Part shown: positions 5,778 to 23,393 of the stretch, one piece after another | How the letters are laid out: each line of letters begins with the position of its first letter | Position numbering within the stretch: position 1 is the stretch's first letter | Source of the DNA: Anaeromassilibacillus senegalensis | GTDB lineage: Bacteria > Bacillota > Clostridia > Oscillospirales > Acutalibacteraceae | Assembly: GCF_021531715.1 (NCBI RefSeq) | Contig: NZ_JAFBIT010000003.1 | Span: forward strand, 310,001-374,000 | Direction of reading: 5' to 3' | DNA: 64,000 nucleotides | Made by a program: the position numbers and the translations under genes | Notes under the pieces: generated by a model | The model's database searches: none | What the model saw: the letters and a program-made list of their open reading frames with translations, nothing else | What the model was told of the DNA's origin: nothing

Positions 5778-5809
5778 ATTAAAATACGCACAAAGAGGAG
5801 CTGTTACCC

Positions 5810-7108: not shown

Positions 7109-7132
7109 TACAGAGAAAGAGAGGAGCTTACT

Positions 7133-7564: not shown

Positions 7565-7589
7565 TCCAAAACGGAACACAAAAGCAGGT

Positions 7590-7629
7590 AAAGGCAGGTA
7601 TGAAATAGCAGTATTTCATACCTGCCTTT
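7590..7629 (+). terminator. Stem-loop terminator of the ior operon
   Basis: Perfect 18-bp inverted repeat (arms 7590-7607 and 7612-7629) with a GCAG loop. The 3' arm ends in TTT and no long T-tract follows. The GH127 gene starts 18 bases later. Confidence 0.75.
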
Positions 7630-7647
7630 CAAATGGGGGGGAAAAGT

Positions 7648-9468
7648 ATGGGTGCGTGGAATTTTTACACGGCGAAGGAAATCAAGCCGCGCGGCTGGCT
7701 GAAGCGGCAGCTCGAGATTCAGGCGGCGGGACTGAGCGGCAATCTGGATAAGGTCTGGCGCGACGTGCGGGACAGCGCGTGGATTGGCGGGGACGCCGAG
7801 GGCTGGGAGCGCGTGCCGTACTGGCTGGACGGCTTCATCCCGCTTGCGTATCTGCTCGAAAACGAGGATATGATCGCAAGGGCCAAGCGGTATATCGATG
7901 CGATCCTCGCGGCGCAGAAAAGCGACGGTTGGATCTGCCCCTGTTTCGATGCGGACAGGAAGACGTACGATACGTGGGCGGTGCTGCTCATCGCCAAGGT
8001 GCTGACCGTGTATTACGAGTGCTCGAAGGATGAGCGGATCCCGAAGGCGCTCTATGATACGCTGAAAAACTATTACACGCTCTTGAAAAGCGGGGAGATC
8101 CGGCTGTTTGACTGGGGAAAATTTCGCTGGTATGAGGGCTTTGTGGCCATCCGCTTCCTGTATGAACGGTGTGAGGAGGACTGGCTCATCGAGCTGGCGA
8201 AGATCCTGAACGACCAGGGAACGGACTATCCGGCGCTCATGCCGCTTTGGGAGGAGCCGAAGGACGTCTGGCGCTTTGACACGCATATTGTGAACCTCGC
8301 GATGGCGCTGAAATACGAGGCAGTTTCGTGCGAGCTGCTCGGCGAGCCGTACGGCGATGACGCGGAAAAGCTGTATGCGGCGCTGCGCCGATACAACGGC
8401 ACGCCGGTGGGGCTGTTTACGGGCGACGAGTGCCTTTCGGGGCTGAGCCCCATTCAGGGCACGGAGCTGTGCGCTGTGGTGGAGCAGATGTATTCCTGCG
8501 AGCTGCTGTATGCCCACACGGGGGACAAGAAGTGGGCGGAGCGCCTCGAGGTGCTCGCCTTCAACGCGCTGCCCGCGACAATCAGCGACGATATGTGGGC
8601 GCACCAGTACGTGCAGATGAGCAATCAGATGGCGTGCGTACGGTTTCCGGAGGACGTCAAGCCGATCTTCCGCACAAACGGCCCGGAATCACATCTGTTT
8701 GGTCTGGAGCCGAATTTTGGCTGCTGCACGGCGAATTTCAGCCAGGGTTGGCCGAAGTTTGCGCTATCGACATTTATGCACAGCGGCAGCACGGTTCTGA
8801 GCGCTGTTCCGGTGCCGTCCGTGCTGGAGACGGCGGATTTCCGCATTGAGCTGGAAACCGACTATCCCTTTGAGAACACGTTCCGATATACCATCGCATC
8901 CGGAAAGGACTTCACGTTCCAGATCCGCATTCCCTCCTTCGCCGAAAATGTTTCGGTGGACGGGCAGCCGTTTGCGGGCGGGATGTTCTCGGCGGAGATC
9001 AAGGCGGGGGAGACGCGGGAAATCTGCGTGCGCTTTGAAACGGCCCCGCATTTCGTAAAACGGCCGTATGAGCTGACGGCGGTCCAGTGCGGCTCGCTCG
9101 TCTTTTCCGTGCCCGTGCAGTATGAGAAGAAGATGTACGAATACGAAAAGAACGGCGTGGAGCGGAAATACCCGTACTGCGATTACGAGTATTGGCCCAA
9201 GAGCGACTGGAATTACGCCTATTGCGGCGGCGCGCTGACACTGCACAGACGGGAGACGGACGCGGTTCCGTTTTCCTCCGGGCATCCGCCGGTGACAATC
9301 ACGGCGCGGGCTGTCCAAATCGACTGGGGTATGGAGCCGGGCTATGATGCGCTCTGCGCGAAGACGCCGCGCTCGAGGACACCCTTCGGCGACGCCGAAG
9401 AAATCGAGCTGTACCCCTACGGCTGCGCCAAGCTCCGCATGACAGAGCTTCCGCTGATCGATTCATAA
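7648..9468 (+). CDS. GH127-type beta-L-arabinofuranosidase (DUF1680 family)
   Basis: 606 residues, no signal peptide, so a cytoplasmic glycosidase acting on imported oligosaccharides. The N-terminal (alpha/alpha)6 barrel part has WLKRQLEIQAAGLSG and WERVPYWLDGFIPLAYLL, typical of the family. Cys359 and Cys360 (GCCTAN) match the cysteine pair that binds zinc and provides the nucleophile in characterised GH127 enzymes. Glu279 lies in a conserved E-rich helix. A C-terminal beta-sandwich follows. The ATG at 7648 is chosen over 7633 because GGGGGGAAAA precedes it. With the GH51 gene at 62.4-64 kb it supports arabinan use. Substrate linkage is inferred. Confidence 0.85.
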   Translation: MGAWNFYTAKEIKPRGWLKRQLEIQAAGLSGNLDKVWRDVRDSAWIGGDAEGWERVPYWLDGFIPLAYLLENEDMIARAKRYIDAILAAQKSDGWICPCFDADRKTYDTWAVLLIAKVLTVYYECSKDERIPKALYDTLKNYYTLLKSGEIRLFDWGKFRWYEGFVAIRFLYERCEEDWLIELAKILNDQGTDYPALMPLWEEPKDVWRFDTHIVNLAMALKYEAVSCELLGEPYGDDAEKLYAALRRYNGTPVGLFTGDECLSGLSPIQGTELCAVVEQMYSCELLYAHTGDKKWAERLEVLAFNALPATISDDMWAHQYVQMSNQMACVRFPEDVKPIFRTNGPESHLFGLEPNFGCCTANFSQGWPKFALSTFMHSGSTVLSAVPVPSVLETADFRIELETDYPFENTFRYTIASGKDFTFQIRIPSFAENVSVDGQPFAGGMFSAEIKAGETREICVRFETAPHFVKRPYELTAVQCGSLVFSVPVQYEKKMYEYEKNGVERKYPYCDYEYWPKSDWNYAYCGGALTLHRRETDAVPFSSGHPPVTITARAVQIDWGMEPGYDALCAKTPRSRTPFGDAEEIELYPYGCAKLRMTELPLIDS

Positions 9469-9666: not shown

Positions 9667-10023
9667 GTGAAGGGACTTTTTCCTCCCTTCAAAAAATCTT
9701 TCACAGAAAGGGTGTTGGACATGCAGGAAGAAACGGCGCTGGAGGGATTCCGCAGGCTGGCGTTCGGTGACATCCGCGACGCGGTGCGGCTTTTGTTCTG
9801 CGACGAGGTCAACCCGCGGATGCTCCGGAATATGAACCTGTTTGCGGTTTCGGAGATCCGCAGGCCGAAGGGCGGGGGCATGGAGATCCGGTTCTTTGAC
9901 CGCATCGAAGCGCTTCGGCTTCTGAGCGAGCTGGAGAGCGCGGGCGGCGGCGCAAGCGATGTGCTGCGCGCAATTGAGCGCGGCGCGGAGGCGCTCGGCG
10001 GGCGGGACGGGGACGCGCCGTGA
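9667..10023 (+). CDS. Phage terminase small subunit (probable)
   Basis: 118 residues from a GTG start with GGAGG 5 bases upstream; an ATG at 9721 is a weaker alternative. The centre reads NLFAVSEIRRPKGGGMEIRFFDRIEALRLL, typical of small DNA-packaging proteins of Firmicutes prophages that end in a segment contacting the large terminase. It overlaps the terminase large-subunit gene by 4 bases, the usual gene order. It would recognise the packaging site; the phased repeats just upstream are an obvious candidate. Identification rests on position and a short motif, so it is less certain than the large subunit. Confidence 0.7.
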   Translation: MKGLFPPFKKSFTERVLDMQEETALEGFRRLAFGDIRDAVRLLFCDEVNPRMLRNMNLFAVSEIRRPKGGGMEIRFFDRIEALRLLSELESAGGGASDVLRAIERGAEALGGRDGDAP

Positions 10024-11288
10024 GGACGTTTTCCGAAAAGCAGATGCAGGCGCTCTGCTGGTGGGGCGAAAAAAGCCCGTACCGCAACAAGAACGCGATC
10101 ATCTGCGACGGCGCGGTGCGCAGCGGCAAGACGGTGTGCATGGGGCTTTCGTTTTTCCTGTGGGCGATGGCCAGGTTTTCCGGGGTGAGCTTTGCAGTGT
10201 GCGGCAAAACGATCCGTTCGGTGCGGCGAAATGTGATCGCTGAGCTGCTGCCGCAGCTTCGGCACATGGGCTTTTCGGCACAGGTGCGGTATTCCGAGAA
10301 CAAGCTGACTTTGCGGTACAGGGGGATCGAAAACCGCTTTTACCTCTTTGGCGGCAAGGATGAATCGAGTGCGGCGCTGATTCAGGGCATGACGCTCGGC
10401 GGCATCCTGTTCGACGAGGCGGCGCTGATGCCGCGGTCGTTCGTGGAGCAGGGCATCGCGCGCTGCTCGCTGCCGGGCGCAAAGCTGTGGTTCAACTGCA
10501 ACCCCGAGCATCCCCAGCATTGGTTCTACCGCGAGTGGATTCTGAAAGCGGAATCGCGCGGGGCGCTGTATCTGCACTTCACGATGGAGGACAACCCGTC
10601 GCTGAGCGCCGCGGTGCGGGCGCGGTACCGGCGGATGTTCACCGGTGCGTTTTACAGCCGGTTCATCGAGGGCAAGTGGACGGCGGCGACGGGGCTTGTG
10701 TACCCGTTCGCGCAGGAGCTGCTCTGCGACGCGCCGGCCGGGCCGTTCGAGCGGTTCGGCGTGTCGATCGATTACGGCACGGTGAATCCGACCTCGATGG
10801 GGCTTTGGGGCTGTCTCGACGGCGTGTGGTACCGGATCGACGAGTACTACTACGACGCGCGCGCCGAGGGTATACGGCGGACGGACGAGGAGCATTTCCG
10901 CGGCTTTCAGCAGCTTCTGGCCGGCAGAACGCCGGAAACGGTCGTCTGCGACCCGTCGGCGGCAAGCTTCATCGAGCTGCTTCGCAGCCGGGGCTACGCG
11001 GTGACGCCCGCGAAGAACGATGTGCTCAACGGCATCCGCCAGACGGCGACGGCACTGCGCACCGGGCGGATCAAAATTGCCGCCTGCTGTGCCGACACGG
11101 TGCGGGAGTTCTCGCTGTACCGCTGGGCGGACGACGGCGTACGGGACGTGCCGGTCAAGGAAAACGACCATGCCATGGACGACATCCGGTATTTCGTCTC
11201 GACGGTGCTCACGGTGCAGGAAGCGTTTGCCTGCGCTGTGGAGCGCCGTGGGGACGGAGAGAAAGGAGAGAGCATTTGGGACTTTTGA
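10020..11288 (+). CDS. Phage terminase large subunit, PBSX type
   Basis: ATP-driven DNA-packaging motor and nuclease, 422 residues, normal length. Walker A reads DGAVRSGKT (about residues 37-45) and Walker B GGILFDEAAL (about 128-137), followed by the coupling motif WFNCNPEHP. The C-terminal RNase H-like nuclease has its metal ligands in SIDYGTVNP, TVVCDPSAAS and HAMDDIRYF. GTG start overlapping the small-subunit stop. No frameshift or missing catalytic residue is visible, so the motor looks functional. It packages DNA into the capsid built from the downstream genes. Confidence 0.93.
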   Translation: MRTFSEKQMQALCWWGEKSPYRNKNAIICDGAVRSGKTVCMGLSFFLWAMARFSGVSFAVCGKTIRSVRRNVIAELLPQLRHMGFSAQVRYSENKLTLRYRGIENRFYLFGGKDESSAALIQGMTLGGILFDEAALMPRSFVEQGIARCSLPGAKLWFNCNPEHPQHWFYREWILKAESRGALYLHFTMEDNPSLSAAVRARYRRMFTGAFYSRFIEGKWTAATGLVYPFAQELLCDAPAGPFERFGVSIDYGTVNPTSMGLWGCLDGVWYRIDEYYYDARAEGIRRTDEEHFRGFQQLLAGRTPETVVCDPSAASFIELLRSRGYAVTPAKNDVLNGIRQTATALRTGRIKIAACCADTVREFSLYRWADDGVRDVPVKENDHAMDDIRYFVSTVLTVQEAFACAVERRGDGEKGESIWDF

Positions 11289-12421
11289 AAAAGAACAGGC
11301 AGGCGGCCGTGTCTGTGCAGACGCAGGGCGCATACACGCCGGTTCTGCCGCAGGCCGCGGGCGAACGCGGGCTGTATCGCGCGCTGCGCGAGCAGGTGCC
11401 GATCATCGACGCGGCAATCCACAAGCTCGTGCGGCTTGTGGGCGGCTTCACGGTGAGCTGCCCGGAGGCCAAAACAGAGGCGGCGCTCCGTGATTTTCTC
11501 CGTACGGTGCCGGTCAACGGCTGCAACTGCGGAATCGACAGCTTCCTTTCCGTCTATTTTGAGCAGCTTTTGACGTACGGCAACGCGGTGGGGGAGATCG
11601 TTGCGGCAAACGGTGCGGTGCACGCGCTGTACAACGCCTCGCTCGACGACCTCGAGATCCGGCTCGTTTCGCCGCTGGAGGCGGGGGTCTTTGTAATCCG
11701 GCGCAGCGGCGCGCAGCCGTGCCGCTATCCGGAGCTGATCCTCTCCTCGGCGCTGAATCCGGCGCCGGGCAGCGCGCAGGGCACTTCCATTTTGAAGGGC
11801 CTGCCGTTCGTGAGCGAGGTGCTGCTCAAGATTTACCGCACGATCGGGATCAATTGGGAGCGCATGGGCAACGTGCGCTTTGCGGTGACGTGCAAGAACG
11901 AGGGCTACATGAATGCAGGCGACCGCGCCGCGCAGCTTGCGCGCGAATGGAGCCGCGCGATGCACGGCCCGGGCGTGAGCGATTTCGTTGCGGTGGGCGA
12001 TGTGTCGATCCAGGCGATCGGCGCAGACAACCAGCAGATGAACAGCGACGTACCGGTGCGTCAGCTTCTCGAGCAGATCGTGGCAAAGCTCGGCATCCCG
12101 CCGTTTCTGCTCGGGCTTTCGTGGTCCTCGACAGAGCGCATGTCGAGCCAGCAGGCGGACGTGCTGACGAGCGAGCTGATGGCCTACCGGCGCATTTTGG
12201 AGCCGGTCGTGCTGAAAATCTGCCGCACATGGCTGCGCCTCAACGGGCTTTCGGACGAGGTTGCCATCGAGTGGGACGAGATCACGATGCAGGATGAGGT
12301 CGACCACGCGAACGCGGAATACCTTGCGGCGCGCACGGCGGCGCTCAGGGGAGAGGAGAAGAAAGACAATGAACGGGAAAATTCTGAAGGGTGCGCAGAA
12401 AATCGGCGCCGAGGCACTTGA
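11276..12421 (+). CDS. Phage portal protein
   Basis: 381 residues from a TTG start at 11276, chosen because GAAAGGAGAG lies just upstream and the first residues MGLLKKNRQ match HK97-type portals. The gene overlaps the terminase end by 13 bases. Conserved segments include YGNAVGEIV, IYRTIGINWERMGNVRF, LAREWSRAMH and GIPPFLLGLSWSSTERMSSQQADVL. Portals form the dodecameric ring through which DNA enters the head. The next gene begins inside this one. Confidence 0.88.
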   Translation: MGLLKKNRQAAVSVQTQGAYTPVLPQAAGERGLYRALREQVPIIDAAIHKLVRLVGGFTVSCPEAKTEAALRDFLRTVPVNGCNCGIDSFLSVYFEQLLTYGNAVGEIVAANGAVHALYNASLDDLEIRLVSPLEAGVFVIRRSGAQPCRYPELILSSALNPAPGSAQGTSILKGLPFVSEVLLKIYRTIGINWERMGNVRFAVTCKNEGYMNAGDRAAQLAREWSRAMHGPGVSDFVAVGDVSIQAIGADNQQMNSDVPVRQLLEQIVAKLGIPPFLLGLSWSSTERMSSQQADVLTSELMAYRRILEPVVLKICRTWLRLNGLSDEVAIEWDEITMQDEVDHANAEYLAARTAALRGEEKKDNERENSEGCAENRRRGT

Positions 12422-13337
12422 GCGCATCAACGGCTACACGCGCCGCCCGTACAGCGCGGAGGAGGTCTACACGTTTTCAGTCGTGCTCTGCGATAACGAG
12501 GTGGACCGCGATTTCGAGTGCTTCACAAAAAAGGCGCTCGAGCAGCTTGCGGCGCTCTTTGTGGGCAAGACGGGCATTCTCGACCACGTCCATTCGAGCC
12601 GGAACCAGTCGGCGCGCATTTACGCGACGCAGGTGCGGACATTTCCGGAAAAGCGCACGGCGCGCGGAGAGGTTTACGCCCAGCTCGTCGCCGAGGCGTA
12701 CATTCCCCGCGGCGCGGAGACGAACGCGCTGATCGAATCAATCGAAAGCGGCATCCGCAAGGAGGTCAGCGTCGGCTGCGCGGTGGCAAAGCGCACGTGC
12801 TCGATCTGCGGGCAGGAGAGCTGCGGCCATCTGCGCGGCAGGGTGTACGACGGCAAGCGCTGCGTCCGCATTCTGGAGGACGTGACGGATGCGTACGAGT
12901 TTTCGTTCGTGGCGGTGCCCGCGCAGCGCGCGGCGGGCGTCGTGAAGCAATTTTCGCGCGCGGAGAAAGGGGAGATCCAATCGGTGTACGACATTCTGAA
13001 ACGGCTCGAAACCGAGGAGAGCGTGACGGTTTCGGGCGGAGAGCTCGAGCAGCTCCGCGAGGAGCTCAAGGCACTGGAGACACGCGCCGCATGCGGCGAC
13101 CGCTACCGCGCGTCGCTCTGCACGCAGATCGCGAAGTTCAGCGCCGTGGCACAGCCCACGCTGAAGCGTGGTCTTCTGGACGCGATGCTCAAGGGGCTGA
13201 CGATCGGCGAGCTGGAGGAAGCGGCCGGCGCCCTCGGCAAAATGGCGGAGGCGCGCATGCCGGTCATGCCGCAGCTTGCCGGAGACGCGGGAGACACACT
13301 GGAAAAAACCGCGGATGACCGCGCGTTTTGCATTTAA
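12369..13337 (+). CDS. Prohead maturation protease / scaffold-like protein
   Basis: 322 residues; the ATG at 12369 lies inside the portal gene in another frame (53-base overlap). The N-terminal part looks like an S78-type prohead protease: LDHVHSSRN holds a candidate catalytic His and RKEVSVGC a candidate Ser. Just after it is a Cys/His cluster, CSICGQESCGH, that could bind a metal. The C-terminal half is helical, with a stretch like ELEQLREELKALETR, and may act as the scaffolding portion. Gene order (portal, protease, capsid) fits HK97-like head modules. The catalytic assignment is by pattern and position only. Confidence 0.75.
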   Translation: MNGKILKGAQKIGAEALERINGYTRRPYSAEEVYTFSVVLCDNEVDRDFECFTKKALEQLAALFVGKTGILDHVHSSRNQSARIYATQVRTFPEKRTARGEVYAQLVAEAYIPRGAETNALIESIESGIRKEVSVGCAVAKRTCSICGQESCGHLRGRVYDGKRCVRILEDVTDAYEFSFVAVPAQRAAGVVKQFSRAEKGEIQSVYDILKRLETEESVTVSGGELEQLREELKALETRAACGDRYRASLCTQIAKFSAVAQPTLKRGLLDAMLKGLTIGELEEAAGALGKMAEARMPVMPQLAGDAGDTLEKTADDRAFCI

Positions 13338-13366
13338 CATTTTCAAATCTGAAAGGGGAAAACATC

Positions 13367-14368
13367 ATGGCATTTGAAAACATTACACTCGAAAAAGGCA
13401 TGTACGGTGTACCGGGCAAGAGCTTCACACAGGTGCTCGAAGAGCTGGACGGTTCCCAGAATTATACGGGCACGCCGCTCGCGGGCCTCGACGCTTACCA
13501 GCGCCAGCTCAAGCGCTTCGACATTCGCGTGAGCGGCCCGAGCTGCGACACCGTGGAGAAGTTCTTCACCTCCTCGCAGAGCGCGGCGCTTTTCCCGGAA
13601 TACGTCGCCCGCGCAGTGCGTCAGGGCATGGAGATGGCGAACCACCTGCCCGATATGGTGGCAACCGTCACCAAGATCGATACGCTCGATTACCGTACGA
13701 TCAAGGCGGAGACAGATTCGGGAGAGAAAATCGCGGATCCGGTCGCAGAGGGCACGGCGATTCCGCAGACCGTTGTCAAGACAGGCAGCGCACTTGTCAC
13801 GCTCAAGAAGCGCGGCCGCATGGTTGTCAGCTCGTATGAGGCGCTGCGCCATCAGAGATTGGATCTGTTCACGGTCATCCTGCGCCAGATCGGCGTGTAC
13901 ATCGCGCGCAGACAGATGAAGGACGCAGTCGACGTGCTGCTGAACGGCGACGGCTCCAACAGCGGCATCACAGTGACCTCTCTGACCGCCGCGCCGACAT
14001 ACAATGATCTCGTCACGCTCTGGGGCAAGCTCGCGTCCTACAATTTCAATACGATCCTGGCCGGTACCACAGCGCTGCAGGATCTGCTGAAGATCAGCGA
14101 ATTCAAGGACGCGCAGGCAGGTCTCAACATCAACGGCGCAGGCAAGCTGATCACACCGCTCGGTGCGACACTGATCCATGTGCCGTCGATGGATGCGAAG
14201 AAGATCATCGCGCTCGATAAGAACTGTGCGCTCGAAATGGTGCAGGCGGGCGATGTGCTCACGGATTACGACAAGCTGATCGACCGCCAGATGGAGCGCG
14301 CGGCGATCACCTCCATCGCGGGCTTTGCGCAGATCTACGGCGACGCCGCACAGGGTCTGAGCTACTGA
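13367..14368 (+). CDS. Major capsid protein, HK97 fold
   Basis: 333 residues behind a strong AAAGGGGAA site. An N-terminal helical region is followed by TAIPQTVVKTGSALVTLKKRGRMVVSSYEALRHQRLD, the P-domain/E-loop-type region of HK97 capsids, and the C-terminal DYDKLIDRQMERAAITSIAGFAQIYGDA. Length and position after the protease are normal. A strong stem-loop follows the stop codon (14383-14406), suggesting extra message for this protein relative to downstream genes. Confidence 0.85.
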   Translation: MAFENITLEKGMYGVPGKSFTQVLEELDGSQNYTGTPLAGLDAYQRQLKRFDIRVSGPSCDTVEKFFTSSQSAALFPEYVARAVRQGMEMANHLPDMVATVTKIDTLDYRTIKAETDSGEKIADPVAEGTAIPQTVVKTGSALVTLKKRGRMVVSSYEALRHQRLDLFTVILRQIGVYIARRQMKDAVDVLLNGDGSNSGITVTSLTAAPTYNDLVTLWGKLASYNFNTILAGTTALQDLLKISEFKDAQAGLNINGAGKLITPLGATLIHVPSMDAKKIIALDKNCALEMVQAGDVLTDYDKLIDRQMERAAITSIAGFAQIYGDAAQGLSY

Positions 14369-14382
14369 TTTGAATTGCGCGT

Positions 14383-14406
14383 GCCGCCCCGGGTTTCCGG
14401 GGCGGC
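14383..14406 (+). terminator. GC-rich stem-loop after the capsid gene
   Basis: Perfect 10-bp stem GCCGCCCCGG/CCGGGGCGGC with a GTTT loop and no T-tract. Lacking the T-run, it is more likely a partial terminator or an mRNA-stabilising 3' hairpin than a full stop, since the downstream cassette genes have no promoter of their own. Confidence 0.6.
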
Positions 14407-14434
14407 AGAACGCGCGGAAGGGTGCGTGGTAGAC

Positions 14435-14791
14435 ATGAAATTGGAAACGGTGCTGAACCGGCTGCGTCTGTTGACGGAGGACAGCCGCGAGGAGCTGCTT
14501 CTGCTGCTCGCTTCGGACGCGGTGGGCGTGCTTTCGGAACGCGTCGTCGGCACAGCGGAGGAGATTGCGGAAAAAGAGGACGCACTGTGTGCCGCAGCTG
14601 CGGCGTACGCGGCGTATCAGCTCGCACTGCTCGACGAGGCGCAGTCTCCGGACAGCGTGACGGCGGGCGACGTGCGCGCGGAGTATAAAACCGGCAGCAT
14701 AAAGGCGCGCGTATACTACGAACAGTGCCTGCGCGGCCTGTCTGGTATCCTGCGCGACGATACGTTTTACTTTGGGGGTGTGCGCGCATGA
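14435..14791 (+). CDS. Putative head-tail connector protein
   Basis: 118 residues, alpha-helical and acidic, beginning MKLETVLNRLRLLT and continuing with a long helix rich in Ala and Glu. It sits between the capsid gene and two further small connector genes and overlaps the next gene by 4 bases. Phage head-completion (gp6-like) adaptor proteins occupy this position and have this size and helical character. The ATG at 14435 has GGAAGGG 12 bases upstream; a GTG at 14426 is possible. No motif proves the function. Confidence 0.6.
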   Translation: MKLETVLNRLRLLTEDSREELLLLLASDAVGVLSERVVGTAEEIAEKEDALCAAAAAYAAYQLALLDEAQSPDSVTAGDVRAEYKTGSIKARVYYEQCLRGLSGILRDDTFYFGGVRA

Positions 14792-15120
14792 GAAGCCTGA
14801 TTCATACGCTGTTCCGCCGCGCGCAGCCGATTGCGGTGACGGCGGCGGGGAAAACCGTGCATCGCCGCGGTGTGATCCGCGCGCTCGGGCGGAACGCGCA
14901 GGATTTCACGACATTCGATCTGCTGCGCTGCGGAAAGCTCGAGACGCCGCTGTACCTTTATCTCGGCGACGCGGAGGAGCTGCTCGGCGCAGACGACGCG
15001 CAGGTTTTTTGCGGCGGGGAGACGTACACCGTGCTCGAGGCCGCGCCGGTGGACGGCTTTTTCGGGCGCGCGTATGTGCGCGCCGTTCTCGAAAGGAGGC
15101 GTGCGGATGACGGGCAGTGA
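14788..15120 (+). CDS. Small phage connector/neck protein
   Basis: 110 residues, ATG overlapping the previous stop (ATGA). Basic N-terminus (RSLIHTLFRRAQPIAV), then beta-rich sequence ending in FFGRAYVRAVLERRR. Position suggests a head-tail joining or stopper protein. I recognise no specific family. It overlaps the next gene by 14 bases, part of the tight packing of the whole cassette. Confidence 0.55.
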   Translation: MRSLIHTLFRRAQPIAVTAAGKTVHRRGVIRALGRNAQDFTTFDLLRCGKLETPLYLYLGDAEELLGADDAQVFCGGETYTVLEAAPVDGFFGRAYVRAVLERRRADDGQ

Positions 15121-15781
15121 GCTTGCGGCGGCGCTTCTGGAAAAGCTCAGGGCAGCGCTGCCGGAGATCGAAGTTCGCGCGGCTTATTCTGGGCGTGTGA
15201 CGCGAAAGCCCGCAAAGCCGGTGCTCTGCATCGGGCTGCTGCATGAAGAGCGCGCGGACGGCGCGGGTAGCGCGAAGCTCGGCGTATGGCTCTATACGCC
15301 GCCCGAAAACGCACCCGCCGATCTGTTCGCTGCGGTGTGCGCCGCTTTGCAGGCGATTCCCTGCACGGTGCGCAGCGTAACGCGCGGTGAAGCGAAATAC
15401 GACGGTGCGGTTGGCTGCGTCGTGACGCCGTGCACAATTCAGGCCGTGACGACCACTGCGGCGGAGAACCGCACGGCGGTCAAGATCAACGGCATGGAGT
15501 TTGCGGCGGACGGCGTTTCGGTATCGCTCGAGACGCAGACGAAGCGGTACGGCTCTGTGGGCGAGGAGAAGCCGCACACGGTTGTGAATGGCGAAAAGAC
15601 GTACCGCGTCACGCTGACAGGATTTACCGGCGGCACGGAGCTGCTGGGAATTGAGAGCTTTGCGCTGGAGACAGGCGGCGTGCGGTATGCGCCGTGCGCA
15701 TGGCGCAGGATCGAGCCGAACCGTCTGGTGCTGGAGGCGGGCGGTGCGGAGAACATCACGGAAAGCGGGGAGAACGAATAG
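15107..15781 (+). CDS. Phage protein with tail-terminator-like N-terminus and beta-rich C-terminus
   Basis: 224 residues from an ATG behind GGAGGCG. Residues 1-90 look like a tail-terminator/completion protein: a helix (SELAAALLEKLRAALPEIEV), a beta strand pair and a second helix (ADLFAAVCAALQAI). Residues about 120-220 are beta-rich, starting KINGMEFAADGVSVSLE and including EKTYRVTLTGFTGGTELLG. No separate tail-tube gene is seen in the cassette, so the C-terminal half could be a tube-like domain fused to a terminator. That is inference; no homologue is recognised. Confidence 0.5.
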   Translation: MTGSELAAALLEKLRAALPEIEVRAAYSGRVTRKPAKPVLCIGLLHEERADGAGSAKLGVWLYTPPENAPADLFAAVCAALQAIPCTVRSVTRGEAKYDGAVGCVVTPCTIQAVTTTAAENRTAVKINGMEFAADGVSVSLETQTKRYGSVGEEKPHTVVNGEKTYRVTLTGFTGGTELLGIESFALETGGVRYAPCAWRRIEPNRLVLEAGGAENITESGENE

Positions 15782-15782
15782 A

Positions 15783-15872
15783 ATGGAAGATCAATATGAG
15801 ACGATGCGCGCGCTCTCCGATGCGCTGGAGCGCGACGGGCGGCGCTATCCCGGGCCGATCCGCACGGCCTGA
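15783..15872 (+). CDS. 29-residue phage cassette protein
   Basis: A very short frame lying between two clear genes in the same direction: it starts one base after the previous stop codon and ends 20 bases before the next gene. It encodes a small amphipathic peptide with a central DALERDGRRYPGP stretch. The tight fit and good codon use make it likely real, though it has only a weak ribosome site (AGCGGGGAG). No function is known to me. Confidence 0.5.
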   Translation: MEDQYETMRALSDALERDGRRYPGPIRTA

Positions 15873-15892
15873 GCGCGGGGAAGGAGACGGCG

Positions 15893-16405
15893 ATGACCAA
15901 TCTGATGAAGATGCGCTTCGGCGATTTTGAATTCCCGGTCAATCCCGCCGAGCTGCAGGTTGAGCTGGCCGCGCTGCTGCGCGAGAGCGTTTCGGCGCAG
16001 GGCGGGACGCAGGTGCAGCCGGTCGGCGTGCGGAAAAAGCGCGTGCGCGGCAAGGGCTTTTTCACCGGCGAAGAGGCAATGGCCGATTATCTGCGGCTGG
16101 AGGGACAGTTCGGTGAGCCGCACACGCTGTTCCTGCCGGGGCGCAGGCCGTTTGAAGCGGTTCTGAGCGAGCTGACGCTTTCGGGCGTGCAGGAAAAAAA
16201 CGTGGTGGCGTACAGCTTCACGTTTGTGGAGACAGCGGGAAAAGCCGAAGGCGTTTCGGGACGGACATATACCGCAAAGGGCGGCGAAAGCCTGTGGGAT
16301 TATGCGTATTTTTCGGGCGTTTCGATCGACCGTCTGGCGGCGGCGAACCGCCACCTTGCGTGTATCGCGTCGCTTGCGCCGGGGGAGAAGGTGTATATCC
16401 CGTGA
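15893..16405 (+). CDS. LysM-containing tail/baseplate protein (XkdP-like)
   Basis: 170 residues, strong GGGGAAGGAG site. The N-terminal 115 residues resemble the hub-associated XkdP/gp53-like proteins of contractile tails (FGDFEFPVNPAEL, then KGFFTGEEAM). The last 45 residues form one LysM domain (TYTAKGGESLWDYAYF ... LAPGEKVYIP). LysM binds peptidoglycan or helps hold the spike, as in T4 gp53 and PBSX XkdP. The stop overlaps the next start by one base. Confidence 0.75.
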   Translation: MTNLMKMRFGDFEFPVNPAELQVELAALLRESVSAQGGTQVQPVGVRKKRVRGKGFFTGEEAMADYLRLEGQFGEPHTLFLPGRRPFEAVLSELTLSGVQEKNVVAYSFTFVETAGKAEGVSGRTYTAKGGESLWDYAYFSGVSIDRLAAANRHLACIASLAPGEKVYIP

Positions 16406-17307
16406 TGCGGTTTGTTTTTCTGTTTGCGGACGGCACGGAAACGGAGCCGAATACGCAGCCGACGCGTGTCTCTCTGCGGCGCGACGCGGATACGCCGGCG
16501 GACAGTCTGGAGCTGACCTTTACGCCGTCCGGGCCGCTCTTTTCAAAAGAGCCGTGCGGCGTGCGGATGGAGCACGGCGGCACGGTGCTGTTTTCGGGCA
16601 TTCTCGACGAGCACAGTGTGCACACAAAAGCCGGCGTGCGCACGGAGTTTTTCTCTCTGCGCAGCCGGGCGGCGGTATTGCTCGACAATGAGGCGATGCC
16701 GGGGCAGCTCCGGATGCCCTCCCTGCGGCTGATCGAGACGCTGTTCCTGCAGCCGTTCGGCCTGCGGGCCGAGGGTGAGGATTTTTCGCCGAAAGCGGGC
16801 GAACTCGTACTGGAAAAGGGCACGAGCTGCTGGCAGGCGGTGTGCAGCTTTGCGGAAACGTTCCTGCACTGCACGCCGCACTGCACGCGTGCGGGCGCGC
16901 TGCGCTTTGCGGACCGCGAGCCGAAAACGCTGCGCCTTTCCGATGTGCGGGAGACGGAGCTTTCGCACCGCCCGTATGCCCGGCTGAGCCGCGTCGTGGT
17001 GCAAAACACGCGCACCGGCGCGTACAGCACCGTGTATGAGAATCCGGCGGCGGCCGGTGTCAGCCGCGTGCGGTATCTTTCGGCGTACGCCAGAACTGCG
17101 CCCAAAACACTGCTTGCGCAGGGCGAGCGTGCGGTCGTGCGGCTGCGCGTGACATGCGGCGGCTTTGTGGATGCGGATCCGGGCGATGTGTGCGGCTTTC
17201 CGGCGTTCGGCGCACCATGTGAAAGAATGCGGCTGGCTGCCCTGCGTTACCGGTACGCAGACGGCGGGGAGGAAACGGAGCTGACCTTTGAGCCGGACAC
17301 AGTATAA
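16405..17307 (+). CDS. Phage tail hub protein, gpD/XkdQ-like
   Basis: 300 residues starting with the TGATG overlap. The beta-rich N-terminus (SLRRDADTPADSLELTFTPSG) and the later SYRVTV-like repeats fit the late control protein D / gp27-like hub family. The C-terminal RYRYADGGEETELTFEPD is characteristic of XkdQ-type hubs. It would form the trimeric base of the baseplate spike. Order LysM protein, hub, spike, gp25, J follows PBSX. Confidence 0.72.
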   Translation: MRFVFLFADGTETEPNTQPTRVSLRRDADTPADSLELTFTPSGPLFSKEPCGVRMEHGGTVLFSGILDEHSVHTKAGVRTEFFSLRSRAAVLLDNEAMPGQLRMPSLRLIETLFLQPFGLRAEGEDFSPKAGELVLEKGTSCWQAVCSFAETFLHCTPHCTRAGALRFADREPKTLRLSDVRETELSHRPYARLSRVVVQNTRTGAYSTVYENPAAAGVSRVRYLSAYARTAPKTLLAQGERAVVRLRVTCGGFVDADPGDVCGFPAFGAPCERMRLAALRYRYADGGEETELTFEPDTV

Positions 17308-17328
17308 AAAATGAGGAGGAAGGAGAGC

Positions 17329-17664
17329 ATGTGGCTTTCAAAACGAACGGCTGAGACACAGACGGTGCAGACGGCGAAGACCGGCGTCGTCACGACGGGC
17401 GGCGGAGAGATCAGCGTGCGCACCGATATGGAGCGCCGCGCGCCGCTTGTCACGGTGCCGTACGGTATGGCCGTGTGCCTGCCGCAGGGGGAAAAGGTCG
17501 TGATGCTGCCGGAAAGCGGCGTGTGCATCGGCGCAGTCAATCAGACGGAGGGGCTTTCACCCGGCGAGGTGCGGCTGTTTTCCGCAGGCGGCGCGGAAAT
17601 TTTGCTGCGGGCGGACGGCACGGTTGTCATCAACGGACAGGTCTTTCCAAAGGCGGAGGCGTAA
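17329..17664 (+). CDS. Baseplate spike protein, gpV-like
   Basis: 111 residues, GGAGGAAGGAG site. The middle (APLVTVPYGMAVCLPQGEKVVML) resembles an OB-fold, and the C-terminal SPGEVRLFSAGGAEILLRADGTVVING is the typical gpV/gp45-type beta-helix tip of contractile phage spikes. It is short compared with P2 gpV, lacking an extended tip. It sits between hub and gp25-like genes. Confidence 0.75.
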   Translation: MWLSKRTAETQTVQTAKTGVVTTGGGEISVRTDMERRAPLVTVPYGMAVCLPQGEKVVMLPESGVCIGAVNQTEGLSPGEVRLFSAGGAEILLRADGTVVINGQVFPKAEA

Positions 17665-17665
17665 T

Positions 17666-18016
17666 ATGGATGTAAGGCTAGAAAACGGTGTGATCCGCCA
17701 GAACGGGCTCGGCCTGCCGGAAACAGCGGACGGTTTGGACGCGCTTTTGCAGCGCGCGTACATCCGGCTGAACGCGGTGCGCGGCAGCTTTCCGTACGAT
17801 CGCGCGCTCGGCAGCCGTATTCCGCAGATGGCGGTAACCGCCGAGCACGCGGCGGAGCAGGCGCTCGGCTTTGCGCGCGAGGCACTGCTCGGGTGTGCGG
17901 AGATCACGGCGGAGCGCGCGGAAATACACGGGAATACGGTGACGGTGTACCTTGCGACGCCGCTCGGCACAGGCTATGTCACGGTGAAAAAGGAGGAGAC
18001 AGGCGATGGAATTTGA
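17666..18016 (+). CDS. Baseplate protein, gp25/XkdS-like (DUF2634)
   Basis: 116 residues. The pattern ENGVIRQNGLGLPETADGLDALLQRAYIRL, then FPYDRALGSRIPQM, matches the gp25-like wedge proteins that nucleate the sheath in contractile tails. It overlaps the J gene by 11 bases. A gp25-like wedge without any sheath gene in the cassette is notable. Confidence 0.75.
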   Translation: MDVRLENGVIRQNGLGLPETADGLDALLQRAYIRLNAVRGSFPYDRALGSRIPQMAVTAEHAAEQALGFAREALLGCAEITAERAEIHGNTVTVYLATPLGTGYVTVKKEETGDGI

Positions 18017-19064
18017 GGAGCTTTACGCGCGCATGGCGCAGAAATACGAAGCGCTTGCAGGCTTTGCACCGGACGACGCTTCGGATGCGGGCATTCGCCT
18101 GCGCGTGCTTGCGGGGGAGATTTATTCGGCGCTCTGCGCGCTTGAAACGGTGCGCGATGCGTCGTTTCCGCAGACGGCTGTGGGCGAAGCGCTCGACCTG
18201 CACGCCGGGCAGCGCGGCCTTACGCGCAGGCCCGCCGTGCGCGCCAAGGGAACGCTGACCTTTTCCCGCGGCACGGCGCTGAGCTACGACGCGGAGATCC
18301 CGAAGGGGACAGTCTGTGCGTCGTCCGGCGCGGCGGCAGAATTTGAAACGACACAGGCCGTGGTACTCCCGGCAGGTCAGCTTTCCGTGACGGCGGAGGC
18401 GCAGGCGGTTGCGGGCGGCAAAGCGTACAATGCGGCGGTGCATACGGTGGATACGCTCGTCACGCCGCCCGCGGGCATTGAAAGCGTGCTGAACGAGACG
18501 CCGTTTACGGGCGGTCTGGACGCGGAGGGCGACGAAGCGCTGCGGGAGCGTCTGCTGGCGCATTACAGCGTACTGCCGAACGGCGCGAACGGCGAGACAT
18601 ACCGCCGGGCGGCGCTGCAGGTTCCGGGCGTTGGGAGCGTCAACGTCGTACCGCGCGCGAACGGCATCGGTACGGTGGCCGTTTACCTGTACGGCGAGGG
18701 CGAGGCGGCTTCGGCGGAGGTCGTCGCGGCGGTGCAGGCGGCGCTCGACGCGCTGCGTGAGATCAACGTGGATGTGACCGTTGCGGCGGCGGAGCCCGTC
18801 ACAAAGCGCGTCACGATGTATCTCGTGCCGAAGGACGGCTGCGGCTTTGAGGACGCAAAGGCCGTCTGCGAGGAAGCGGTGCGCGCATATTTTGCCTCGC
18901 TGTCTGTCGGCGCGCCGTTTGTGACGGCGGCAATAACGGCAGCGATCATGCAGACCGGCGCGGTGAAAAACTGCACACTGCCCGCGAGCGTCGTCGATTA
19001 CGGCACGGCGGCGAATCAGATCGTCGTGCCGGGCGAGATCACGGCGCTCAAAGCGCAGGCGTAA
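18006..19064 (+). CDS. Baseplate J-like protein (XkdT)
   Basis: 352 residues, normal for gpJ/gp6-like wedge proteins. Typical segments include SFPQTAVGEALDLHAGQRGL, RGTALSYDAEIPKGTVCASS, FTGGLDAEGDEALRERLLAHY and VPGVGSVNVVPRANGIGTVAVYL. It forms the baseplate periphery and carries the fibre. Intact, in the usual order after the gp25-like gene. Confidence 0.9.
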   Translation: MEFEELYARMAQKYEALAGFAPDDASDAGIRLRVLAGEIYSALCALETVRDASFPQTAVGEALDLHAGQRGLTRRPAVRAKGTLTFSRGTALSYDAEIPKGTVCASSGAAAEFETTQAVVLPAGQLSVTAEAQAVAGGKAYNAAVHTVDTLVTPPAGIESVLNETPFTGGLDAEGDEALRERLLAHYSVLPNGANGETYRRAALQVPGVGSVNVVPRANGIGTVAVYLYGEGEAASAEVVAAVQAALDALREINVDVTVAAAEPVTKRVTMYLVPKDGCGFEDAKAVCEEAVRAYFASLSVGAPFVTAAITAAIMQTGAVKNCTLPASVVDYGTAANQIVVPGEITALKAQA

Positions 19065-19076
19065 GGAGGTGCGTAC

Positions 19077-19631
19077 ATGACGGACGCGGAAAAGCGGATG
19101 CGGCGCATTCTGACGCAAACCGGCCTGTACTCGGGCGAGGATAAGATCTTCTCCGCAGAAGTGGCGGCATATGGCGTGGGGTTCGACATTTTTGCTAAAG
19201 AGCTGGAGCGCCTGCGGCGCAATCTCTTCGTGCAGACGGCAGACGCGCAGGGCCTTGCGCGGTTTGAAGGGCTGTTTCGGATCCGGCCGTCCTCGGACAG
19301 TGCGGAGAACCGCCGTGCGATGCTTTTGCGGCGCGGCGGCATAACGCCGGCAGATCACACGAAGGCGGCGCTCGAGGAGCAGTTGCTTGCCGCCGGCATC
19401 CGGGGCGGCATTGTGGAAAATTATGAAGGCGGCCTGCTCGTCAATGTGCAGGAGGTGCTCGGCATTTCGGAGACGACGGCGGAGAGCGAGGCGCGCACGT
19501 TTATGCCCGCGCATCTGCCGTGTGCATTCGATTTCGGCAGCAACACGTGGGACGCGGCCGATGAAGCCGGGCTGACGTTCGACGAAATGGACGCGAAAAA
19601 CTACACATGGGCGCAGATCGACAGCCTGTAA
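19077..19631 (+). CDS. Baseplate/tail protein, XkdU-like (DUF2313)
   Basis: 184 residues behind AAGGAGG. Contains the YmfQ/XkdU-like N-terminus (DAEKRMRRILTQTGLYSGEDKIFSAEVAAYGVGFDIFAKEL) and the C-terminal MPAHLPCAFDFGSNTWDAADEAGLTF pattern. Family members (gpI-like) connect the J wedge to tail fibres. Confidence 0.78.
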   Translation: MTDAEKRMRRILTQTGLYSGEDKIFSAEVAAYGVGFDIFAKELERLRRNLFVQTADAQGLARFEGLFRIRPSSDSAENRRAMLLRRGGITPADHTKAALEEQLLAAGIRGGIVENYEGGLLVNVQEVLGISETTAESEARTFMPAHLPCAFDFGSNTWDAADEAGLTFDEMDAKNYTWAQIDSL

Positions 19632-19649
19632 CGGAAGGGACGATGCAAA

Positions 19650-20117
19650 TTGGCAGCAAGTGAAAAGACAGAGGTGCTCGGGCTTTCGCTCTGGGCAGGG
19701 ACGGACAAGCCGCGCCGCGCGGATTTCGTGGCGGACAACAGCGCGCTCGAAACGCTCGTCGGCGGGCATCTGCAGAACGCAGATCTCCACCTGGATGATG
19801 CGCGCCGCGCGCGGGTGGACACGCCCGTGGAGGTGCGCACATATACGGGAACGGGCGCGGTATCGCGCTCGCTCGTATTCGATTTCAGCCCGTCGGCGGT
19901 GATCGTGTTTGCGATTGGCAAGGGCGCTTCGGAGTATACGGGCGCCTATACGAAGCATTATGCGGGCTTTTCCGCGGGTGGGCAGCACAGCCTCGGCGTT
20001 GCGCTGAGTACCGTGCAGGTGCGCGTGTCGCAGACGCAGACGGAGCCCGAAACGGGCGGCAGCATGGCGGCGCTCAATGAGACCGGCGTGACCTACGCGG
20101 TTCTGGCGTTTCGCTGA
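19650..20117 (+). CDS. Short tail-fibre-like protein, last gene of the cassette
   Basis: 155 residues from a TTG start with GGAAGGGA 9 bases upstream. The beginning (LGLSLWAGTDKPRRADFVADNSALE) is the phage fibre N-terminal pattern often seen after DUF2313 genes. The remainder is a short beta-rich tip with a Gly-rich centre. It is far shorter than usual fibres. Its last 62 coding bases, stop codon and 13 bases beyond are repeated at 38353-38430, marking the island junction. Confidence 0.6.
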   Translation: MAASEKTEVLGLSLWAGTDKPRRADFVADNSALETLVGGHLQNADLHLDDARRARVDTPVEVRTYTGTGAVSRSLVFDFSPSAVIVFAIGKGASEYTGAYTKHYAGFSAGGQHSLGVALSTVQVRVSQTQTEPETGGSMAALNETGVTYAVLAFR

Positions 20118-20525: not shown

Positions 20526-21635
20526 TTATCTGTTCCTGCTCAATTCCCTTTCAGCGACCTCTAGTGCAGAAGCCAAAACTGTATCCATATCGTAATAACG
20601 GTATTCTCCTAGTCTCCCTCCGAAAATCGTTTTAGTTTCAAGATTTGCAAGCGTTTTATATTTTTCATAAAGAGCCATATTGATTTGATCGTTGACTGGG
20701 TAATAAGGTTCAATACCCGGTTGCCATTCCAAGCTGTATTCACGGGAGATAACAGTTTGACACTGTGTTCCGAACTCAAACCACTTGTGTTCGATAATCC
20801 GTGTATAAGGCGTTTCACAATCCGTGTAGTTGACCACTGCGTTTCCTTGAAAATTAGGCATATTTAGAAGTTCAGTTTCGAATTGTAGAGAGCGATAACT
20901 GAGATATCCATAGCAGAAGTCGAAATAGGCATCAATGGAACCAGTGTAAACAACTTTGTTTGCGATTTTGTTCCAATAATCGCGCTCATTCAAATAATCT
21001 TTGTTTAACTGAACCTCTATGCCACTGAGCATGTTTTCTATCATTTTAGTATAGCCACCAATAGGAATACCTTGAAAGCGTGCATTGAAGTAATTGTTGT
21101 CAAAAGCAAAACGTACCGGCAAACGTTGAATGATGAAAGCCGGTAGTTGGTTGCAGGGGCGGCCCCATTGCTTCTCCGTATATCCCTTAATAAGCTTTTC
21201 GTAAATGTCCGTGCCGACTAGAGAAATTGCTTGTTCCTCCAGGTTTTTTGGATCTGTGATGCCCGCAGCTTTACGTTGTTCTATCACTTTTTGCTCAGCT
21301 TCTTGTGGTGTAATCGTACCCCACATTTGATTGAAGGTGTACATATTGAAGGGTAAAGAATAAATTTTACCGTGATAATTGGCAATGGGTGAATTTGTAT
21401 ATCGGTTAAACTCTGCAAATTGATTTACATAATCCCAAATGAGATGATTATTCGTATGAAAGATATGAGCACCGTATCGATGGACTTGTATACCCGCTAT
21501 TTCTTCTGTGTAGACATTGCCTCCAATGTGGTCTCGTTTATCAATAGCCAGAACTTTTTTTCCTGCTGCTTTTGCCTGTTGTGCGAAGGCAGCACCGAAT
21601 AACCCCGTACCCACTACTAAATAATCGTAACGCAT
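20526..21635 (-). CDS. glf: UDP-galactopyranose mutase
   Basis: Flavoenzyme converting UDP-galactopyranose to UDP-galactofuranose in the cytoplasm; 369 residues, normal length. N-terminal FAD motif VVGTGLFGAAFAQ, then DKRDHIGGNVYTEE, YGAHIFHT and FNMYTFNQMWG are diagnostic. The C-terminal FGGRLGEYRYYDMDTVLASA holds the second conserved arginine region. The ATG at 21635 follows GAAAGGAAAG and the promoter at 21718-21746. It is divergent from the polysaccharide operon and supplies a Galf donor for it. Its codon use is AT-rich like the island. Confidence 0.96.
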   Translation of the reverse strand: MRYDYLVVGTGLFGAAFAQQAKAAGKKVLAIDKRDHIGGNVYTEEIAGIQVHRYGAHIFHTNNHLIWDYVNQFAEFNRYTNSPIANYHGKIYSLPFNMYTFNQMWGTITPQEAEQKVIEQRKAAGITDPKNLEEQAISLVGTDIYEKLIKGYTEKQWGRPCNQLPAFIIQRLPVRFAFDNNYFNARFQGIPIGGYTKMIENMLSGIEVQLNKDYLNERDYWNKIANKVVYTGSIDAYFDFCYGYLSYRSLQFETELLNMPNFQGNAVVNYTDCETPYTRIIEHKWFEFGTQCQTVISREYSLEWQPGIEPYYPVNDQINMALYEKYKTLANLETKTIFGGRLGEYRYYDMDTVLASALEVAERELSRNR

Positions 21636-21717
21636 AATTGCTTTCCTTTCCGATCCGAGTATCGGCGGACCACAATAAATAAATTTGGAAATCTTTTGAA
21701 GTAGTTTTCTTAAACTC

Positions 21718-21746
21718 AGTATACCATATAAGTTCTGCTTTGTCAC
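21718..21746 (-). promoter_or_regulatory. Promoter of glf
   Basis: Minus strand: -35 GTGACA (21746-21741), 17-base spacer, -10 TATACT (21723-21718), about 83 bases before the glf start. Confidence 0.65.
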
Positions 21747-21894
21747 GGAAGTTTGTGTGGTTCGGCAAAATTTACATAAATCGATTAATATACAATAATA
21801 CCAAATATCGGATACATAACAACAGAAAGAACTACAAAGCTATAAGTCTTAAGTAGAAAATTACTGGAAAGAAACGTTTTTATACATGCAAATG

Positions 21895-21923
21895 TTGAAA
21901 AATGTAGGACTTTATGTTATAAT
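21895..21923 (+). promoter_or_regulatory. Main promoter of the polysaccharide operon
   Basis: -35 TTGAAA (21895-21900), 17-base spacer, -10 TATAAT (21918-21923). The leader of about 60 bases runs to the sugar-phosphate transferase gene. From there to 34061 the genes overlap or are closely spaced, so one transcript could cover all eleven. Confidence 0.75.
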
Positions 21924-21989
21924 CACTAAATAAAGTGAGATTGCTATGTTTTTGAATAAGAGGAGTCAGAACGGATAAGGACGAGAGAA

Positions 21990-23393
21990 ATGGAAAAGAG
22001 AGAACAATATAAGCGATTGATTATGGGCTTTTGCTCTGCTGTGATCCTTTTTTTGCTTACAATAATATTTGCTTATGTTTGGTATCATAATTATGCAGGT
22101 AATTCCGCAGTGCTGCTGAAGATTTTTTGGCGCAGAGGTAATTATGTAGTCATTATTCTGTATGCGCTGATGCTTTTTCTGTTTTACAGACTATATGGTG
22201 GCTTTAAGGTTGGCTATCTTCGGGTGTTTGAAGTGCTGTATTCGCAGATTCTTTCGGTGCTTTGTGTCAATGCCGTTACATATTTGCAGCTTTGTTTGAT
22301 TGGCCACTGGCGTTTCCTGTCACATATTGGGCCGATTCTTGCCATGACGGGAGTGGATCTTGCCGTGGTGGTTGTCTGGGTATTTCTTACCCGTTGGGTC
22401 TATCTGAAAATCTATCCACCGCGTAAATTGCTGCTGATTTACGGCAACTATAACCCGGATGAGCTGATCCGCAAAATTGGTACCCGTGAGGATAAATATG
22501 CAATTCAGGAGAAAATCTCCTTTGAAGAGGATATGGATATTTTGAAGGAGAAAATTTTGCAGTATCGCGGTGTCGTTATGACGGATATTCCATCTAGTGT
22601 CCGGAATATGATCCTTAAATTTTGCTTTGATCAAAATATCCGTTGCTATTCTGTGCCCAAAATTTCGGATATTATGATTATGAGTTCGCAAAACATCCAT
22701 TTGTTTAATACATCTCTACTGCTATTCAGAAACAGAGGATTAACGATTGAGCAGCAGATTTTAAAGCGGCTCTTTGATATTGTGGTGTCGCTGATTGCTA
22801 TTGTAATTGCCAGTCCGTTTATGCTAATTATTGCAGCCAGCATCAAGTTGTGCGATCACGGCCCTGTGTTTTTTAAGCAAGATCGTTTGACGCAAGATGG
22901 AAGAGTGTTCAAGGTTATAAAATTCAGAAGTATGCGGGTTGAGACTGAAAAGGCGGAGTATCACTTGACCAGAAAACATGATGAACGGGTTACCCCCGTT
23001 GGCAAAGTGATCCGTAATATTCATTTTGATGAACTGCCGCAGCTTTTCAATATTCTAAAAGGTGACATGTCCCTTGTTGGTCCCCGTCCTGAGTGTCCGA
23101 AGACGGCGGAGGAATATCAAGAGATTATTCCGGAATTCAATTTTCGACTGAAAGTTAAAGCAGGTCTGACTGGTTATGCGCAGGTGTACGGCAAGTACAA
23201 TACCACGCCGTATGATAAATTGAAACTGGATCTTATTTACATCGAAAACTACTCATTCCTTCTGGATATCAAGCTGATCCTGCTGACTTTCAAAATTCTG
23301 TTCCAGAAAGAAAACACCGAGGGGGTTGAATCTTGGCAGACCACAGCGGTGAAAGAAAACAAGATAAAGAAAGACGAAAAAAACAATGGATGA
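21990..23393 (+). CDS. Polyprenyl-phosphate sugar phosphotransferase (initiating transferase)
   Basis: 467 residues. The N-terminal half has several hydrophobic helices (about 12-130), a soluble middle follows, and the C-terminal bacterial sugar transferase domain starts at about residue 255 with KRLFDIVVSLIAIVIASPF. Signature blocks FFKQDRLTQDGRVFKVIKFRSM, DELPQLFNILKGDMSLVGPRPE and GLTGYAQVYGKYNT are intact. It transfers a sugar-1-phosphate to undecaprenyl phosphate at the membrane, starting the repeat unit. WbaP/Cps2E-like; the sugar (Glc, Gal or other) cannot be read from sequence. The stop overlaps the next start by 8 bases. Confidence 0.92.
   Translation: MEKREQYKRLIMGFCSAVILFLLTIIFAYVWYHNYAGNSAVLLKIFWRRGNYVVIILYALMLFLFYRLYGGFKVGYLRVFEVLYSQILSVLCVNAVTYLQLCLIGHWRFLSHIGPILAMTGVDLAVVVVWVFLTRWVYLKIYPPRKLLLIYGNYNPDELIRKIGTREDKYAIQEKISFEEDMDILKEKILQYRGVVMTDIPSSVRNMILKFCFDQNIRCYSVPKISDIMIMSSQNIHLFNTSLLLFRNRGLTIEQQILKRLFDIVVSLIAIVIASPFMLIIAASIKLCDHGPVFFKQDRLTQDGRVFKVIKFRSMRVETEKAEYHLTRKHDERVTPVGKVIRNIHFDELPQLFNILKGDMSLVGPRPECPKTAEEYQEIIPEFNFRLKVKAGLTGYAQVYGKYNTTPYDKLKLDLIYIENYSFLLDIKLILLTFKILFQKENTEGVESWQTTAVKENKIKKDEKNNG

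Follow-up and report, generated by a model that had tools for sequence, protein, structure and literature searches.

What kind of particle is made by a phage-like gene cluster that encodes a head and a Mu/PBSX-type baseplate, with next to nothing between the two? Such a cluster lies at positions 9667-20117 of a 64,000-nucleotide stretch of the genome of Anaeromassilibacillus senegalensis, a species related to common gut bacteria (contig NZ_JAFBIT010000003.1, our C3:310001-374000; hereafter the window), and a preliminary description of it had proposed a domesticated particle, either like a gene-transfer agent (GTA) or short-tailed with a baseplate, rather than the product of random decay. Portal counts, gene neighbourhood and ratios of nonsynonymous to synonymous substitution (dN/dS) support that proposal. 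We think that the cluster encodes a phage-derived particle of the GTA kind, domesticated and passed on vertically, and we put the probability of this at about two in three; our preferred reading is a GTA-like particle with head and baseplate in one operon and a tail of a single ring. What we see is the gene order, a fused fold in a structural model, no sheath, one portal copy, a shared neighbourhood, purifying selection and sheath-bearing relatives; from these we infer particle assembly, packaging of host DNA, its delivery, and lysis from elsewhere in the genome.

All genes of the cluster were translated and scanned against Pfam and PHROGs, and whole-genome searches covered the 2.45 Mb genome. 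The cluster holds 15 intact genes and a 29-residue peptide on the + strand (Table 1), and the overlapping run from terminase to short fibre proved to be as described, with no damage to any reading frame. The family assignments fared unevenly: terminase, portal, capsid, hub, baseplate J and the gp48-like protein are well matched, and the terS-like, gp25-like, protease, adaptor and stopper proteins weakly. The catalytic motifs said to be intact can be read in the terL translation (the strings GAVRSGKT and LFDEA, and also three candidate Asp motifs of the nuclease). The gap between the stopper-like gene and the LysM gene does contain one 224-residue protein and one 29-residue peptide, and the reported lack of a sheath extends from the cluster to the whole genome, searched with the PF04984 profile and with the sheath of a relative (L150) as query. 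Also as described, no integrase, repressor, holin or endolysin was seen in the cluster in the translations and the Pfam/PHROGs scan, nor any phage replication or lysogeny genes with it; the LysM protein matches PHROGs named endolysin, via its LysM part. Small genes between tube and tape measure, presumably chaperone-like judging by position, are missing from the window's cluster.

The preliminary description had found no tail tube, and on this point it needs correction. The structure prediction that it had suggested for the 15107-15781 product gave an AlphaFold2 model (alignment with 18 homologues; mean predicted local distance difference test score, pLDDT, 85.7) in which a tail-terminator domain is joined to a tail-tube domain. 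Residues 1-120 have a terminator fold in the model, with structure matches to lambda gpU (3fz2_A, VIA Z 11.6), Mu (9khy_1, 11.6) and chain 6tba_4A of RcGTA (Z 9.9, root mean square deviation (rmsd) 3.4, 113 aligned). Residues ~114-219 match the phiCD508 tail chain 9gb1_S (Z 8.6, rmsd 4.0 over 105), Mu 9ki1_4 (Z 8.5, rmsd 4.3 over 99) and Hcp 9vne_B (Z 8.4, rmsd 2.1 over 76), the two phage chains being presumptive tube subunits on account of their length. Because a Z near 8 can reflect a common arrangement, the tube assignment leans on the weak match of phrog_27038, the tube family of the sheath-bearing relatives, to the C-terminal domain (E=0.02), and on three relatives (L052, L056 and L163) that encode terminator and tube in separate genes at this position. 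Elsewhere, at L169:10423-11148, an independent fusion joins a stopper to a tube domain.

A tape measure had likewise been called missing, which is right of a full-length one; the 29-residue peptide is probably a shrunken version. A short motif search of the gap recovered this peptide, in the form ...S...[EQ]R[DE].RRY, from 18/18 relatives in which both flanking genes were recognised. We read it as a remnant because its profile matches the C-termini of short tape-measure-like proteins, 163-195 amino acids long, that lie between the tube and LysM genes of sheath-bearing homologues: L151 (195 residues, 1.6e-4), L150 (167, 3.9e-4) and L149 (163, 0.016), with the next best match in the set at 1.2. 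Its position also suggests a tape-measure role. The profile gave nothing convincing in the sheath-bearing L146, L147, L222, L223, L236, L243 and L248 and no candidate in the sheath-bearing L148 and L224, and in L161, a sheath-bearing locus from the window's own family, the corresponding open reading frame (ORF) has at most 100 residues. A tape measure spans ~0.15 nm per residue, at which rate 29 residues would span about one tube ring.

The cluster also does not behave like a mobile element. One portal match per positive genome was found in 25/25 relatives (25 positive of 60) and in 63/63 positive genomes of an order-wide sample of 297, one of the 63 (G283, L142) being a weak match in a different prophage; in family f25 the portal occurs in 104 of 247 genomes, as a single match in 102 and split over contigs in two. 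Portal identity drops with kinship, from 72-83% in the genus to 49-60% in the family; the value for L027, from the apparent isolate Oscillospiraceae bacterium MH27-2, is 82%. The neighbourhood of the cluster is common to several genera. A methionyl-tRNA synthetase gene lies at most ~10 kb upstream in the window and in L027, L028, L041, L042, L043 and L084; 16 loci have a TM2-domain gene upstream; and window genes 3460-7561 have counterparts of ~90-95% identity in L026 and L028, likewise upstream of the cluster, except for one at 49% in L028. Portal counts and shared neighbourhood together suggest a single-copy, non-mobile cluster inherited vertically. The search for syntenic copies under constraint that had been proposed for relatives thus turned up both the synteny and, in every comparison with a value, dN/dS below 1 (0.01-0.68; NG86 pairwise, nine locus pairs). 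Many of the dS values approach or exceed 1, L065/L066 and L029/L030 being less saturated than the others, and two comparisons had no usable dS. For terS and terL the ratio is 0.11-0.27 in the window and its own genus, and the terminase and head genes of the window are intact and under purifying selection, as one would ask of a GTA.

Among known systems the window's cluster seems closest to FpGTA of Faecalibacterium, by plan and host group and not by sequence comparison, and because the likeness is of that sort we call the cluster GTA-like rather than a proven member of the FpGTA type. The FpGTA report (PMC12946183, Nat Commun 2026) presents a two-operon GTA-like element with ~40 nm heads, ~9 kb of DNA and no identifiable tail, called podovirus-like and found in all 12 Faecalibacterium genomes that its authors examined. 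They describe it as the first GTA-like system from the human gut microbiome and as the first with a podovirus-like form, with the tail unresolved; packaging is also reported in Oscillospiraceae, and of four metagenome-assembled genomes searched only a Faecalibacterium one is reported to have given an operon (PMC12946183). The two clusters resemble each other in an operon of ~10 kb with TerS, TerL, portal, scaffold and capsid and no replication genes, and probably in a single gene between portal and capsid, to go by the FpGTA accessions RCH50849.1 (capsid) and RCH50851.1 (portal), which leave one number between them; they differ in that FpGTA, in the same source, splits head (10.5 kb) and baseplate/lysis (5.5 kb) operons, whereas the window has one head-baseplate operon without lysis genes (PMC12946183). 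The hosts are related: where the loci nearest the window carry a name, the title reads Ruminococcaceae or Oscillospiraceae. In the literature searched, which leaves out most subscription journals, we found no description of a cluster of the window's type. The XkdP-V order of the PBSX baseplate is a further point of comparison: the window shares with PBSX/Mu-type contractile tails the baseplate order LysM, hub, spike, gp25, J, gp48, fibre, and a tube protein is present as the fused domain of the predicted model, but the window lacks sheath and chaperones, its tape measure is 29 residues long and its tube is fused to the terminator. With RcGTA it shares an inherited structural cluster and the resemblance of the terminator domain to chain 6tba_4A; a siphovirus-like tail and an alphaproteobacterial host set RcGTA apart.

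We propose that the particle works as follows. In a few lysing cells the terminase would fill a small head with host DNA, and rings of portal, adaptor and stopper would close the head. A hexamer of the terminator-tube fusion would supply one tube ring, so that tail length would be fixed without a real tape measure, and the Mu/PBSX-type baseplate with its hub, spike and fibre would sit directly on that ring. DNA would exit through this sheathless stub tail, with lysis supplied from elsewhere in the genome.

Several points weigh against such a particle, namely relatives that have lost the terminase, broken copies of the cluster, the lack of a lysis gene in the window's cluster, and recombinase or lysis genes near a few copies elsewhere. 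In ten covered Acutalibacter-like loci no terS or terL is recognisable between the TM2 gene and the portal, and the cluster is kept from the portal onward. The loci that show neither gene at the conserved place are L032, L034-L036, L038-L044 and L084 (L038 with only ~1.5 kb upstream), and L031, L033, L037 and L047 have both between the TM2 gene and the portal. The remaining genes compared in the terminase-less loci, capsid and baseplate included, are 37-97% identical, with dN below dS and dN/dS of about 0.1-0.6. A whole-genome terL search of the 12 genomes with such loci gave no match in seven, Bacterium D16-76 (L034) among them, and matches of 23-42% identity in five; three of these (L252-L254) are at 23-28%, and the best two (L255 and L256), considered as relocated terminases, look like ordinary prophages by their neighbouring ORFs. 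Since the terminase-less loci fall in two places of the tree introduced below (L032 apart from the rest), the loss may have occurred twice, and because selection maintains capsid and baseplate in these relatives, the particle may in some lineages have another function besides DNA transfer, or be selected for something else. All this would suit a DNA-free or killing particle, tailocin-like or PBSX-like, whose value would lie in head and baseplate and not in DNA transfer. We consider that explanation unlikely, if still one to reckon with: terS and terL are retained in the window and its genus under the constraint given above, and a tailocin ordinarily depends on a contractile sheath or on a long tail, neither of which is seen here.

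Distinctly improbable is a decaying prophage remnant, left by deletion of sheath, chaperones and tape measure. It would draw on the sheath-bearing homologues, which the preliminary description had named as possible signs of a simple deletion, and these do exist. A sheath homologue occurs in 20 of the 297 order genomes, all of them portal-positive (20/63); by family the positives are 15/19 in f14, 3/11 in f25, 1/31 in the window's family (G310), 1/1 in f7 and 0/1 in f15, in a search with a single query (L150) that can miss divergent sheaths. When four sheath proteins were scanned with Pfam, those of L150, L146 and L147 passed the sheath cut-off and that of L148 failed (PF17482 E=0.038). Breakage is found too: L028 is without the stopper and fusion genes, and L043, L045 and L244 are truncated or split. 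But relaxed selection is not what the relatives show, with dN/dS below 1 throughout, all genes of the window are intact, and in a portal-capsid-protease tree the sheathless plan with a fused terminator-tube gene, common to 19 loci including the window, lies wholly inside one clade with support 1.0. (Within this clade L028, L035 and L043 lack the fusion or do not cover the region. The tree, made with FastTree and midpoint-rooted, took loci with both portal and capsid matches, and a gene was scored as not covered where the contig ended: of 97 loci, terL in 3, sheath in 20, J in 44 and the fused gene in 15.) A contractile ancestor is likely, because homologues with sheath and tube exist, and it is also the most parsimonious one, since under midpoint rooting the tree has a sheath-bearing root with three changes among the covered loci. 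The change goes beyond a simple deletion: terminator and tube have become one gene, the peptide has been conserved, and selection still acts on the other genes in many genera. Judged by these comparisons, the cluster is a tail reduction under selection and not random decay.

As for lysis, three PF05105 holins are encoded elsewhere in the genome. Two (L261 and L262) follow apparent siphovirus tail genes. The third (L263, G000:C2:427000-440000, around 5689-7749; G000:C2:433741-434205) lies outside any prophage seen, beside a sigma-70 region 4 protein, in a neighbourhood kept in G004 (L278), and the lysin next to it looks truncated; we regard this orphan regulator-holin pair as a candidate lysis cassette only. 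IMG/VR contains 350 portal relatives, of which 80 were fetched and 22 loci longer than 8.8 kb laid out. Mobile-element or lysis genes lie near the cluster in 3 of these 22, other unlabelled ORFs having been judged by their N-terminal letters only: a serine recombinase upstream in L242 (at 1.6 kb) and in L249 (at 6 kb), and an endolysin-type amidase with an SH3 domain upstream in L240 (at 3.7 kb). A gene that L149 also has separates the amidase of L240 and the recombinase of L242 from the cluster, and the genes further out are not the same in the two loci, which is consistent with separate insertions. Because the recombinases and the amidase are outside the operon, and none is in the window's cluster, they leave our odds for a GTA-like particle unchanged. 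The least probable explanation of all, a satellite or small active phage borrowing tail, lysis and replication from a helper, could point to these recombinases, to the compact head-plus-baseplate cassette without lysogeny genes and to the two siphovirus-like tail ends with holins, but it sits badly with one portal match per genome, a neighbourhood common to genera and the lack of any integrase seen in the window's cluster. Separately, the sheath-bearing IMG/VR entries L222, L223, L224, L234, L236, L243 and L248 are catalogued as viral genomes of ~12-14 kb, and may be chromosomal clusters rather than viruses.

Some relatives have even less of a tail than the window. In type B loci (L048-L051, L053, L055, L058-L063, L065-L070, L072, L073, L081, L087 and L166) the terminator carries a fused fibre-like domain, and baseplate genes were not recognised; a model of the fusion has a terminator fold at residues 1-148 (mean pLDDT 76.4), and type B could possibly be a tailless particle with a fibre on its neck ring. 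Baseplate J has no match genome-wide in 7 of the 25 portal-positive relatives, some of whose genomes are incomplete (for example G019 at 82% and G020 at 89%). A match in G009 (L167), considered as a relocated J of type B, sits outside the cluster, among phage-like tail genes that include a sheath of their own (PF04984, 48.2 bits). L054 stops after the stopper, with no tail gene recognised. It is tempting to connect these forms, and we offer the following history tentatively, at somewhat under even odds: an ancient contractile gene-transfer particle would have spread by descent through the order and shed its tail stepwise, with the sheath lost, the tape measure cut from ~170 to 29 residues, the tube fused to the neck, the baseplate lost in some lineages and the terminase dropped in at least one clade, giving a DNA-free particle still under selection.

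Table 1. Genes of the head-baseplate cluster, in window coordinates, with the evidence for each assignment.
Feature	Position	Strand	Evidence
terS-like small terminase subunit	9667..10023	+	PF03592 E=0.013, below cut-off (weak); position before terL conserved in relatives
terL large terminase	10020..11288	+	phrog_2 4.9e-46; PF03237 1.6e-10
portal protein	11315..12421	+	phrog_30703 6.8e-121
XkdF-like maturation protease / scaffold	12369..13337	+	phrog_16951 3.7e-91 (function unassigned family); PF14550 E=0.049, weak
major capsid protein, HK97-type	13367..14368	+	phrog_3922 7.5e-85; PF25209 4.9e-15
head-tail adaptor	14432..14791	+	phrog_541 0.0012, weak
head-completion / stopper-like protein	14782..15120	+	phrog_939 0.0095, weak; position
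predicted tail terminator (residues 1-120) fused to tail tube (residues ~114-219), 224 residues	15107..15781	+	AlphaFold2 model and structure matches
29-residue conserved peptide, probable tape-measure remnant	15783..15872	+	frame read; 18/18 loci; profile matches
LysM tail protein, presumably XkdP-like	15893..16405	+	PF01476 2.8e-05
baseplate hub	16402..17307	+	phrog_177 3.6e-14
spike-like protein (role presumed, from position)	17326..17664	+	phrog_25991 2.6e-13 (function unassigned family)
gp25-like baseplate wedge	17666..18016	+	phrog_975 2.9e-4; PF10934 E=0.011; weak
baseplate J	18006..19064	+	PF04865 3.5e-51
Mu gp48-like baseplate protein	19077..19631	+	phrog_521 3e-16; PF10076 1.8e-5, below cut-off
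short fibre / receptor-binding domain	19650..20117	+	phrog_33092 0.0023; related to C-terminal part of type B terminator-fibre fusion

Downstream of the cluster, window 20526-38180 holds a UDP-galactopyranose mutase gene (20526-21746), a sugar transferase gene (21990-23393) and then mostly unscanned genes. In L026 and L027 a homologue of window 38583-40184 lies directly downstream of the cluster, and 20526-38180 looks like an insertion in this lineage.

What this family offers is a graded natural series, from contractile through stub-tailed to apparently tailless particles, and in the terminator-tube fusion a concrete protein by which tails would be limited to one ring. For the Oscillospiraceae packaging events the FpGTA report found no operons (PMC12946183); these may be the sheath-bearing homologues, if our guess that f14 is Oscillospiraceae is right. 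And the terminase-less relatives make the question of whether selection keeps DNA transfer directly testable.

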